Shown in pieces: positions 45,537 through 53,571 of a DNA stretch of 53,615 nt (its first letter is position 1; each line of letters begins with the position of its first letter). The notes under the pieces were generated by a model. The model saw nothing but the letters and a program-made list of their open reading frames with translations. It searched no databases and was not told where the DNA came from. This DNA is from a virus, in the IMG/VR virus record IMGVR_UViG_3300006802_000123, positions 1 to 53,615 of that record; one strand, 5' to 3'. Both the position numbers and the translations under genes were made by a program.

Positions 45537-45842
45537 ATGGATACTAAACAGTTATTATCAGATATCAAAGCACGATTCGCTCACAATTCCGCTAAAGCAT
45601 ACTTAAAAGACAAATACGAAAGTAAATTGATCGTAGCAGATCAAGGTGGATTGTGGAAAGCAGATTACGCAACTATCAATTTTTTAAATGCGTTTGATGA
45701 TGACCATATCGCCTTGATAGACAAATTTGATAATTTGGTCGTAGTGAATAGGAAAGAACTTTTAGAAAAACTAAAAACTCTGTATACACAAGTTACTAAT
45801 CAATGGCACGAAGAATGGAAAGAGTTAGAGGCTAAACGATGA
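45537..45842 (+). CDS. Conserved small phage protein of unknown function
   Basis: This 101-residue soluble protein opens M-D-T-K-Q-L-L-S-D-I-K-A-R-F and continues A-D-Q-G-G-L-W-K-A-D-Y-A-T-I-N-F-L. The last third is an acidic/basic helix. I recall similar proteins in T4-like marine phages but none with a known role. It is the first gene of the cassette, and the next gene starts inside its stop codon (ATGA), so it may partner with the glycosyltransferase-like proteins. Confidence 0.7.
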   Translation: MDTKQLLSDIKARFAHNSAKAYLKDKYESKLIVADQGGLWKADYATINFLNAFDDDHIALIDKFDNLVVVNRKELLEKLKTLYTQVTNQWHEEWKELEAKR

Positions 45843-46636
45843 GTAGAGGTGCGATACTATTCGCATTTAATTCTCCCAAATACGATTATTATTCAATGGC
45901 AGAGTTTACTGCTAAAAGAATAAATCACTATCTAGATTTACCTGTAACCATAATAACAGATAAAGAGTCTACACTAAGTTCTTCTGGCTATCAGTTCGAC
46001 AATGTTATTATTACCGAACCAGATAAAGACAAAAGCAATAAACGAAGTTGGGGTCTATGGATAAACAAAGGAAGATATCAAGTTTATGATATGACTCCTT
46101 ATGATGACACTATATTACTAGACGCAGACTACATAGTTAACTCAGATCAATTAAAAATTTTACCCGACATCACAACTGATTTTTTGTGTCACTATAACAC
46201 TAGTTATTTGATGGCTCCTGATGCTGGACAAGAAAGCGTATGTCAAGCATTTGATACAGTATGGGCTACAGTTATTTCTTTTAAGAAAACTAAACTAACT
46301 CAACAAATTTTTAACATGATGGAAATGATTCAAAACAACTATGAACACTACAGCAACATATATCATTTCCTGCTTACGCCCTATAGAAATGACTACTCTT
46401 TGACAATCGCGCTAAGAACTGTATATGGACATCTGTTAGATAACAGACATAAGATTCCCTGGAACTTAGTTCATGTTGGTACCGGCACTAAGATATATCG
46501 TGATAGTGATAATGAATACACTATAGTTTATGATAAATGGCAAAGGGGTAAGATAAAGAAAGAATACATCACTATCAAAGATTGTGATTTCCACGTACAG
46601 AATAAAGAACTATTAGAGGATATAATGAATGTCTAA
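45839..46636 (+). CDS. GT-A-type glycosyltransferase-like protein (first)
   Basis: This 265-residue protein has a nucleotide-sugar-transferase outline. The N-terminal strand A-I-L-F-A-F-N leads to a V-T-I-I-T-D-K segment, then a D-x-D motif Asp95-Ala-Asp97 after hydrophobic T-I-L-L, typical of GT8/GT-A enzymes that bind a metal and a sugar nucleotide. It lacks a membrane segment. The gene overlaps its neighbours at both ends. Donor and acceptor are unknown. Confidence 0.6.
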   Translation: MSRGAILFAFNSPKYDYYSMAEFTAKRINHYLDLPVTIITDKESTLSSSGYQFDNVIITEPDKDKSNKRSWGLWINKGRYQVYDMTPYDDTILLDADYIVNSDQLKILPDITTDFLCHYNTSYLMAPDAGQESVCQAFDTVWATVISFKKTKLTQQIFNMMEMIQNNYEHYSNIYHFLLTPYRNDYSLTIALRTVYGHLLDNRHKIPWNLVHVGTGTKIYRDSDNEYTIVYDKWQRGKIKKEYITIKDCDFHVQNKELLEDIMNV

Positions 46637-51329: not shown

Positions 51330-52621
51330 GTATAAACAAAGATAAAATAGAAAAATTGTTGAAAGAAGGTAAGCATTTTTGTGTTTTGCCTTGGATACAT
51401 TTTCATGCTTGGCCTAACAAAAACGTATTACCTTGTTGCATAGCAGATAGTTCTAGTCCTGTATCTAAAACTCCTTCAGGAGATGAAACGATATTAGATA
51501 TGATGAACTCTGAACAATACAAAGACGTTCGCCTCGCTATGCTTGAAGATGCCCCACTAGACATATGTAAGAGATGTTATGATGTAGAAGAGTTAGGTAC
51601 TTGGACTATGCGTCAAAGTCATAATACTAGACGGGGAGAAGAATATCTAGACTATATCGCGGAAACAACCAATGAAGATGGGTCATTGAATGAATTCAAG
51701 ATGGCTTACATGGACATCAGATTTAGTAATCTATGTAACATGAAGTGCAGGAGTTGCGGGCCAGACTGTTCTAGTCAATGGGCACAAGAATACTCTAGTC
51801 TTTGCAACAACAATAAAGATGAACTATGGGATAAACATAGGATAGACAAGATTATTATCAATAACAACGATGATAACACGTTCTTACCAAAATTAAAAGA
51901 GCATTTAAAAGACGTTCAAGAAGTTTATTTCGCGGGCGGTGAAATCATTATCCAACCTGAACACTATGAATGTTTAGACTATTGGATAGACAATAACTTA
52001 AATGAGCAAGTAGAACTAACGTATACTACTAATTTTTCTACACTACAGTATAAGAAAGATTCTAACTTGATAGGCTACTGGAAAAAATTCCCTAAATTAC
52101 AAATATGGGCTAGTCTCGACGGCGGGGGCAAACATGCCGAAGTCATACGTAAGGGAACAGATTGGGATAAAATTATCAACAACATTAAAATGGTAAAACA
52201 AGAAGTCCCTCATGCTAAATTTCAAATCACTCCCACTATTAGTATATGGAATGTATTTCAATTTCCTGATTTCTTTGACGAGTTAGTTGATCAACAACTA
52301 ATAGATATCAATGAAGATTCTGCACCTAGAATCAATCTTTTAACATATCCTTGGTGGGCAAATTTACAGATACTACCACAAAAAACAAGATATAAATTAG
52401 CAGAACGTTACAAAATATCTAGGGAACGTTATAAAAATAATGTACATATCGCTAATGGATTTAAGATGCTAGTATATGCTTTGTATGAAGGTAAAGAGAA
52501 TTTAGATGGCATAAAGCAATTCATGAGAGAGAACAACAGAGTAGATGAAGTAAGATCGGAAAGATTATTAGATGTTATTCCACAACTAGAGGAAGTATAT
52601 AAATGGGCACAAGAAAATTAA
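51326..52621 (+). CDS. Radical SAM protein (rSAM 3) with altered GGE motif
   Basis: This 431-residue protein has the core motif at Cys137, Cys141 and Cys144 (C-N-M-K-C-R-S-C) and the same N-terminal cluster (F-C-V-L-P-W-I-H, L-P-C-C, I-C-K-R-C). The usual G-G-E-P reads G-G-E-I-I-I, losing the proline. The glutamate that contacts the amino group of S-adenosylmethionine remains. Similarity to rSAM 2 through the whole length suggests tandem duplication. Its ATG overlaps the previous stop (ATGA). Confidence 0.85.
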   Translation: MSINKDKIEKLLKEGKHFCVLPWIHFHAWPNKNVLPCCIADSSSPVSKTPSGDETILDMMNSEQYKDVRLAMLEDAPLDICKRCYDVEELGTWTMRQSHNTRRGEEYLDYIAETTNEDGSLNEFKMAYMDIRFSNLCNMKCRSCGPDCSSQWAQEYSSLCNNNKDELWDKHRIDKIIINNNDDNTFLPKLKEHLKDVQEVYFAGGEIIIQPEHYECLDYWIDNNLNEQVELTYTTNFSTLQYKKDSNLIGYWKKFPKLQIWASLDGGGKHAEVIRKGTDWDKIINNIKMVKQEVPHAKFQITPTISIWNVFQFPDFFDELVDQQLIDINEDSAPRINLLTYPWWANLQILPQKTRYKLAERYKISRERYKNNVHIANGFKMLVYALYEGKENLDGIKQFMRENNRVDEVRSERLLDVIPQLEEVYKWAQEN

Positions 52622-53571
52622 TTGAGATTTTCGCGCCAGAGCCATATGTTTCGATAACTTGGCAAGTGAATAATTTTTGCAATTATCAATGCAGTTATTG
52701 TAATCCCGGCAATTGGGGTGGAACAGAGTTAAACGAGGGTAGTCTGGATCTTTATCACAAGAATCTAGAAATCATTGTTAATAGATACATTGAAGCGGGT
52801 TATAAAAACTTTAAGTTTTTCTTTTCAGGAGGTGAACCAACTGCTTGGCCCAACTTTATACCTATATGTGAACGATTACATGAAAAATTACCCCACGCTA
52901 CTTTAGCGGTAAACACTAATTTGTCTAGACCACTAGCATGGTGGAAGAAACATTATCATTTGTTTGATGATATAGTTGCTAGTTTTCACATAGAATTCGC
53001 AAATAAAGACCGCTACGAAGAAAACAGTATTTTCTTATGCGATAAAGTAAATTATTTAAGCACTAAGATGTTGTTGCACGATGAGAGATTCTGGGAAGTT
53101 GTGGAGTATGGGAACTATTTGAAAACAGTAATGCCTAACTATTTCTTAGAATGGACTCCCTTATACGATGAAATGACTGCTAATACAGGACCATGGCATT
53201 ATAGTGATCCTGATAAAGTAAAATTTATAGAAGAAAATACTACAGATCAGAAACAAACATTACCTAAACCTGATAAACGTGCCGATACTGCTAGTTTCGT
53301 GAGATATGATGATGGATATTCTACACATTGCAATAGTAACGAAGTAATAGTAAAAGGATATAACTACTTCACAGATTGGACTTGTAATGTAGGAGACTGT
53401 ATTTTTATTAATCCTACAGGAGAAATGAGTCTAGCAAGTTGCGGTCAGGGAGGAGTTATAGGACATATTTTAAATGATGTGTCTAGGGTAGGACCTAAAC
53501 AAATAACTTGCAAAAAAGAATACTGCCATTGCGGTACAGATATTATCATACCAAAATTCCTGAATAAATAG
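52603..53571 (+). CDS. Radical SAM protein (rSAM 4) with C-terminal cysteine cluster
   Basis: In this 322-residue protein the core motif lies right at the N-terminus: Cys26, Cys30 and Cys33 (C-N-Y-Q-C-S-Y-C), followed by S-G-G-E-P-T. There is no N-terminal twitch region. Instead the C-terminus carries W-T-C-N-V-G-D-C, L-A-S-C-G-Q-G and T-C-K-K-E-Y-C-H-C-G-T-D, the expected position of SPASM-type auxiliary clusters. It is thus built differently from rSAM 1-3. The ATG is preceded by GAGGAAG and overlaps rSAM 3 by 19 bases. Confidence 0.87.
   Translation: MGTRKLIEIFAPEPYVSITWQVNNFCNYQCSYCNPGNWGGTELNEGSLDLYHKNLEIIVNRYIEAGYKNFKFFFSGGEPTAWPNFIPICERLHEKLPHATLAVNTNLSRPLAWWKKHYHLFDDIVASFHIEFANKDRYEENSIFLCDKVNYLSTKMLLHDERFWEVVEYGNYLKTVMPNYFLEWTPLYDEMTANTGPWHYSDPDKVKFIEENTTDQKQTLPKPDKRADTASFVRYDDGYSTHCNSNEVIVKGYNYFTDWTCNVGDCIFINPTGEMSLASCGQGGVIGHILNDVSRVGPKQITCKKEYCHCGTDIIIPKFLNK
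53563..53570 (+). promoter_or_regulatory. Possible late promoter AATAAATA
   Basis: The octamer overlaps the TAG of rSAM 4 and lies 25 bases before the start at 53596. It matches the NATAAATA pattern of the other late promoters. Confidence 0.45.

Follow-up and report, generated by a model that had tools for sequence, protein, structure and literature searches.

Cassettes of glycosyltransferase and radical S-adenosylmethionine (SAM) genes are described in pelagimyophages at sites adjacent to VrlC and tail-fibre genes, with no pathway biochemically characterised (PMC7029224), and islands with both gene types that follow VrlC and fibre genes are not new in kind. For mycobacteriophages, glycosylation of the capsid and tail by phage-encoded glycosyltransferases has been proposed, according to the passage of PMC12619734 that cites Freeman et al. 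(2023). Here we describe a block of nine intact open reading frames (ORFs), A to I, at positions 45537-53571 of the IMG/VR record IMGVR_UViG_3300006802_000123 (53,615 bases; the whole stretch is referred to as the window), located directly 3' of fibre genes. An earlier note on this DNA had stated that a phage pathway of this shape was not known to have been characterised, which is overstated in view of the pelagimyophage cassettes, even though these are not characterised biochemically. As judged from sequence, the A-I block is best explained as the constant 5' part of a glycan operon in T4-type jumbo phages. The window itself is a fragment of a T4-type jumbo phage, because its baseplate wedge protein is nearest to those of Atu_ph07, Phosso, pEa_SNUABM_47, CBB, and similar jumbo phages; elsewhere in the window, baseplate proteins, SbcCD-like nuclease subunits, a late sigma factor, and a structural ORF of 6763 amino acids (aa) are encoded.

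Conservation and late expression of the block

The scan with G identified 67 viral loci, and the order of genes was determined in each of them. Since further scans were based on E (at least 586 relatives) and on C (at least 584), with the best 80 of each kept, the loci from these two scans were not chosen by their radical SAM genes; I was used for scanning as well. The best 80 per scan represent a non-random sample with some contigs shared between scans, and a simple greedy script was used to call the ORFs. Of 118 distinct loci (48 clusters at 80% identity), 117 have the genes in the order fibre-(A)-B-C-(D)-E. This speaks against the picture that the earlier note had named as refuting a cassette, that is, the same genes scattered singly with no conserved neighbourhood. 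Among the loci long enough, B and C were located just 5' of E in 68/69 (E scan) and 64/64 (C scan), and a radical SAM gene was present downstream in 69/69 (E scan), 63/64 (C scan), and 51/51 (third scan); when the E and C scans, performed with no radical SAM query, were pooled, the count was 132 of 133. The order of A-F and its overlaps are kept in distinct loci down to 48.5% identity of E, and marine relatives of about 30-45% identity retain the order fibre-A-B-C-x-E-F. A second group of relatives is devoid of A-D, and its E is long, with repeats at the N-terminus. There is hardly any variation in the B-E part, and the set of radical SAM genes and the 3' part are variable. Hundreds of uncultivated large aquatic phages carry the block. 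Within 50,697 phage records, no homologue was detected for A, C, D, E, I, and fibre f (B was not searched there), and F and G gave no more than weak matches, located in the Vibrio phages K566/K567 and a single marine virus.

All eight junctions between A and I overlap (by 4, 8, 8, 14, 1, 4, 4, and 19 bases in this order), and the median gaps in relatives are -4 (AB), -8 (BC), -11 (CD), -14 (DE), and -7 (EF). The earlier note had supposed that the genes are translated as one unit, that the unit follows the fibre genes directly, and that every junction overlaps: the first agrees with the overlaps kept in relatives, the second with the 49-base gap between the fibre gene and A, and the third is correct for the eight A-I junctions but not for the next one, where 25 bases separate I from a cut-off gene starting with MKKILV.

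A has its own late-promoter-like octamer, TCTAAATA, at 24 nt upstream. The late promoter of T4 is TATAAATA, and the resemblance of TCTAAATA to this sequence fits a single late transcript starting from A. Of 153 relatives, 97 have TAAATA within the 80 bases before A, where shuffling predicts 10; among the octamers at this site, 76 are TCTAAATA, with the commonest positions at 23-24 nt before the start. TAAATA was also found upstream of fibre gene p (133/146 relatives), and before B, C, and G it was rarer than expected. A late sigma factor is encoded by the same phage. Octamers of GATAAATA are located at 18052-18059, 18721-18728, and 43244-43251 of the window, just 5' of baseplate and fibre genes, and are probably further late promoters.

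Proteins encoded by the block and by the genes downstream

No Pfam family above the cut-off was obtained for B, C, and E, and for this reason B and C are described as GT8-like in fold, not filed in a Pfam family. The profile of C matches glycogenin (E-value 1.5e-4), and C is homologous to B (hhalign 99.7%). The AlphaFold model of B (predicted local distance difference test, pLDDT, 87.5) was superimposed on glycogenin 3t7n with Z 16.9 and a root-mean-square deviation (rmsd) of 3.2 A over 200 residues, and the fold of B also matches LgtC. The DxD motif of B (D95/D97) is invariant in homologues, and in the [DE]xD-like motif of C, D90 alone is invariant. The model of E (mean pLDDT 84.5) consists of a GT-A-like region at about residues 2-165 and a helical C-terminal half, with D67/D69 of its DGDN motif invariant in homologues. 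The top Foldseek match of E is the viral capsid glycosyltransferase of PBCV-1 (E-value 1.3e-4), and its structural matches (Z 8-10; best, Z 10.4, rmsd 3.0, 144 residues) are nearly all nucleotide-sugar or nucleotidyl transferases. The profile of E gave no match to PDB sequences, and its GT-A assignment is by fold alone; sequence identity in the fold matches of B and E is low (8-16%). In the long E proteins of 541-924 aa (L022:6989-8614, L043:5163-7403, and relatives), N-terminal repeats of EHVWxLD...WAxK...GxVxPxxxxxxNP are fused to the GT-A-like domain.

For the small proteins A and D, no match was found in Pfam/NCBIfam and structure searches. No transmembrane-like segments were seen in the A-D and F-I families, and the block proteins look soluble from their sequences.

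F, G, and H all score above the cut-off (170 bits) of NF033640 (N_Twi_rSAM), and I, with 31.8 bits, falls below it and is filed simply as a radical SAM protein. With PF04055, G and I are above and H below the cut-off, and F is marginal (above in one run, 0.3 bits under in another). The CxxxCxxC and GGE motifs are present in 305/305 radical SAM homologues longer than 300 aa. In addition to CxxxCxxC, the N-terminal cysteines of F (24/43/85/88) and G (16/34/35/76/79) are invariant, as are the C-terminal cysteines of I (261/280/303/308/310). In the G/H profile, it is the N-terminal domain that gives a match to the BtrN twitch domain (E-value 8.7e-6), and the profile of I matches MoaA and the anaerobic sulfatase-maturating enzyme. 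The protein types read from the letters alone in the earlier note are in agreement with these results: two small proteins without a recognised family (A and D), three GT-A-like proteins (B and C by profile and fold, E by fold), and four radical SAM enzymes as identified by Pfam/NCBIfam, accompanied by an auxiliary-cluster domain, F, G, and H being composed of an N-terminal twitch and a radical SAM core.

A recent tandem duplication of the radical SAM genes was considered and ruled out by the tree, in which the lineages of F, G, and H are old and distinct; their order is fixed. The set varies from 0 to 7 F/G/H-like genes in the fetched stretches of relatives, and from 1 to 19 N_Twi matches per record of the large relatives. 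The matches number 19 and 16 in two single phage records of 320-352 kb (G004 and G007, behind L183 and L266), partly in tandem. In L007-L010, near 9994-10988, the position of G was called as short minus-strand ORFs, even though the tblastn match spans the whole of G, and these ORFs are probably an artefact of the ORF caller. Seven contigs of bacterial metagenome-assembled genomes (L072, L077, L080, L082, L087, L113, and L114) carry the phage block and are for this reason probably misbinned phage DNA. No tested function of NF033640 was found in the searchable literature. The cultured Vibrio phage K566 carries a radical SAM gene block distantly related to G (L150; positions 161548-165950 of the record), and provides an accessible laboratory model.

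The last bases of the window, ATGAAAAAGATATTAGTTTG, fit the start of an epimerase, MKKILVCGAGGFIG, and the truncated MKKILV gene is predicted to encode a nucleoside diphosphate (NDP)-sugar epimerase of the type here called c3; c3 of locus L005 is an Epimerase (PF01370, E-value 5.3e-43). The genes after I in relatives encode NDP-sugar epimerases (GDP-fucose-synthase/GalE superfamily), UDP-glucose-dehydrogenase-like, DegT, RmlC-like, thiamine pyrophosphate-enzyme, C-methyltransferase, SGNH-like, and glycosyltransferase-like proteins, and B12-radical-SAM proteins resembling KedN5 and enzymes of ribosomally synthesized and post-translationally modified peptides (RiPPs), among which the family c2 is like KedN5 and RiPP C-methyltransferases. 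The sugar-nucleotide enzymes that the earlier note had proposed to look for on the right side are present, in relatives, as epimerases, DegT, and others. In most relatives a gene c0 stands between I and the epimerase; it would be missing or located elsewhere in the phage of the window, because the epimerase-like start follows I directly. The c0 cluster, made by single linkage, mixes in UDP-glucose-dehydrogenase-like proteins. By eye, c0 has an SEK motif resembling that of fucosyltransferases, but its profile had no match in the PDB and single members had none in Pfam, and it is therefore described as glycosyltransferase-like only tentatively.

Among 14 large relatives, an epimerase was found in 14 and DegT in 12. 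No match was found in them to PF02397, PF01943, or PF00483 (phosphoglycosyltransferase, flippase, and nucleotidylyltransferase), nor to GtrA (PF04138) above the cut-off, apart from one sub-threshold match in G013; these absences are indicative only, because the records may be fragments and one model was used per function. The block does not have the makeup of a seroconversion gtr cassette, which comprises a GtrA flippase together with a membrane-bound Gtr. A second locus with thymidylate synthase, epimerase, and (mostly) DegT was noted in G001, G003, G006, G007, G008, G009, G010, and G014, about 20-40 kb downstream of the block where both are on one stretch.

Table 1. Features of the window at and around the A-I block
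Feature	Position	Strand	Description and basis
Giant structural ORF	22172-42463		6763 aa; N-terminal part matches phrog_10938, other tested part without PHROG match
p	43272-44501	+	Fibre/virion structural gene, 409 aa, serine plus threonine (S+T) 23.7%; PHROG virion structural and tail families
f	44513-45487	+	Fibre-like gene, 324 aa, S+T 27.5%; candidate target of the block
Octamer TCTAAATA	45513-45520	+	T4-type late-promoter-like
A	45537-45842	+	Small conserved protein, 101 aa
B	45839-46636	+	GT8/glycogenin-like GT-A glycosyltransferase; profile, AlphaFold model, fold match
C	46629-47426	+	GT8/glycogenin-like GT-A glycosyltransferase, B homologue; profile to glycogenin, hhalign to B
D	47419-47766	+	Small conserved protein, 115 aa
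E	47753-48703	+	GT-A-like domain and helical C-terminal half; fold
F	48703-50103	+	N_Twi radical SAM protein; NF033640, 318.6 bits
G	50100-51329	+	N_Twi radical SAM protein; NF033640, 378.3 bits
H	51326-52621	+	N_Twi radical SAM protein; NF033640, 347.7 bits
I	52603-53571	+	Radical SAM protein of other type; N-terminal core, C-terminal Cys cluster
Cut-off gene MKKILV(C/W...)	53597-53615	+	Predicted c3-type NDP-sugar epimerase

Possible roles of the block

We tentatively interpret the block as a late cytosolic operon for assembly and tailoring of a glycan, of which the most likely acceptor would be the upstream S+T-rich fibre. From the late promoter before A, one overlapping message would be made for the whole block, directing synthesis of two possible helper proteins (A and D), two putative retaining GT8-like glycosyltransferases (B and C), E as the third enzyme of GT-A type, and the radical SAM enzymes F to I in series, followed, as in relatives, by epimerases, dehydrogenases, aminotransferases, B12-radical-SAM methyltransferases, and SGNH-type and glycosyltransferase-like proteins. 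The glycosyltransferases would use nucleotide sugars, with the activated core supplied by the host since no nucleotidylyltransferase was found, and the twitch-type radical SAM enzymes might then alter the sugar, or the glycosylated product, at C-H bonds or in redox state. The fibres would in this way be decorated in the cytoplasm by the phage itself, at the time of assembly. Fibre f is located upstream of E in all complete loci of the E and C scans, and the median S+T content is 28.4% in its family (284 homologues) versus 9.5-12.6% in the A-I families; its richness in serine and threonine, its presence in every complete locus, and the shared late timing make fibre f the most likely acceptor. 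BtrN is a sugar-acting enzyme, and by analogy the BtrN-like twitch and the match of E to the PBCV-1 capsid glycosyltransferase would count for this interpretation. The catalytic activities, the sugar as substrate of the radical SAM enzymes, and the fibre as acceptor are all what we infer.

Several points weigh against such a fibre-glycan operon. Adjacency to fibre genes is equally expected for genes of host-surface modification, and S+T-rich composition is common in fibres generally. The match to BtrN is limited to the auxiliary domain, and radical SAM enzymes of the SPASM/twitch type act mostly on peptides. A flippase and a polymerase could come from the host, and the absence of such functions was judged from possibly incomplete records by a single model for each. 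In addition, a Pfam census of the neighbours of bacterial N_Twi genes (131 proteins; misbinned phage contigs left out) revealed mixed families with no glycan or precursor signal.

A strong rival, if a somewhat unlikely one, is remodelling of the host surface, in which O-antigen or capsule would be altered late in infection, blocking superinfection and adsorption of progeny to debris. The comparable pelagimyophage island behind VrlC, with GT8 enzymes, sugar enzymes, and radical SAM cassettes, was read in this way (PMC7029224), and the sugar-nucleotide enzymes differ between relatives, as in receptor arms races. The lack of phosphoglycosyltransferase, flippase, and above-threshold GtrA matches in the large relatives, however, and the lack of membrane proteins within the block argue against it; a late promoter would be tardy for exclusion, and the invariant part adjoins the fibres, not the variable sugar genes.

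Modification of protein, which we consider improbable as the main role, would mean that the twitch enzymes alter side chains of the fibre or of A/D in the manner of RiPP or sulfatase maturation and that the glycosyltransferases act on the same protein. The general preference of SPASM/twitch enzymes for peptides, the resemblance of I to MoaA and the sulfatase-maturating enzyme, and that of c2 to KedN5 and RiPP C-methyltransferases are in its favour, but neither a precursor-like peptide nor a PqqD-like domain was recognised within the block, and the downstream genes are for sugar enzymes. Peptide modification by the radical SAM enzymes could possibly coexist with tailoring of a glycan. Hypermodification of DNA with glycans is very improbable: a thymidylate-synthase-family gene (synthase or hydroxymethylase) is present in 10 of the 14 large relatives, in several beside an epimerase and DegT, but these genes are tens of kb from the block, which is under a late promoter behind fibre genes, and to our knowledge GT8-like enzymes are not of the type known to glycosylate phage DNA. 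The idea of loosely collected moron genes that share no pathway, as might be suggested by the differences in the radical SAM set and 3' part between relatives, is already largely refuted by the A-F order and overlaps kept at low identity and in marine relatives.

The fibre-glycan interpretation may be extended to a large uncultivated jumbo-phage lineage with a dedicated virion-glycan pathway, in which several N-terminal-twitch enzymes, up to 19 per record, would each introduce a specific change by radical chemistry into the fibre-bound sugar chain; such a pathway, whose radical-tailored virion glycan would have no known counterpart, appears unlikely as a whole.

Comparison with known systems

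When they occur in the host-recognition islands of phages, glycosyltransferase and radical SAM genes are commonly dismissed as accessory and variable. The core described here is likely to be important to the phages, because its order is fixed, its overlaps are conserved, and it is located under a late promoter beside the fibres of very diverse phages. No description of the fixed core, its overlaps, late promoter, spread, and radical SAM copy number was found in the searchable literature. The block provides an uncharacterised radical SAM family with defined enzymes that can be expressed, and raises the direct question of which sugar is placed on which virion protein.

At the level of single enzymes, F, G, and H belong to N_Twi_rSAM (NF033640) with 319-378 bits against the cut-off of 170, and here up to 19 copies are present per phage record. 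In the radical SAM dehydrogenase BtrN, the twitch domain is C-terminal, whereas the BtrN-like twitch of G/H is N-terminal, so that auxiliary domain and core stand in reverse order, and the core is without close sequence relation to BtrN. The GT-A fold is common to E and the PBCV-1 capsid glycosyltransferase and to B, glycogenin, and LgtC, and C is joined to glycogenin by profile. In mycobacteriophages, phage glycosyltransferases are proposed to decorate the virion, and in the block the fibre is a candidate target. We know of no radical SAM tailoring in mycobacteriophage virion glycosylation. Core glycosyltransferases are present in moraphages as well (PMC12619734), a parallel in kind that does not imply identity of lineage. 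A close likeness is to the host recognition cluster (HRC) of pelagimyophages and cyanomyophages (PMC7029224), which is likewise in T4-type phages and contains several glycosyltransferases, mostly GT8, together with sugar enzymes and radical SAM cassettes. That island follows the giant VrlC and fibres, and here the ORF of 6763 aa, a candidate counterpart of VrlC, and fibres are located upstream of the block. The HRC is, however, described as hypervariable and non-syntenic, whereas the core q-p-f-A-B-C-D-E-F is fixed, with conserved overlaps, in distant relatives.

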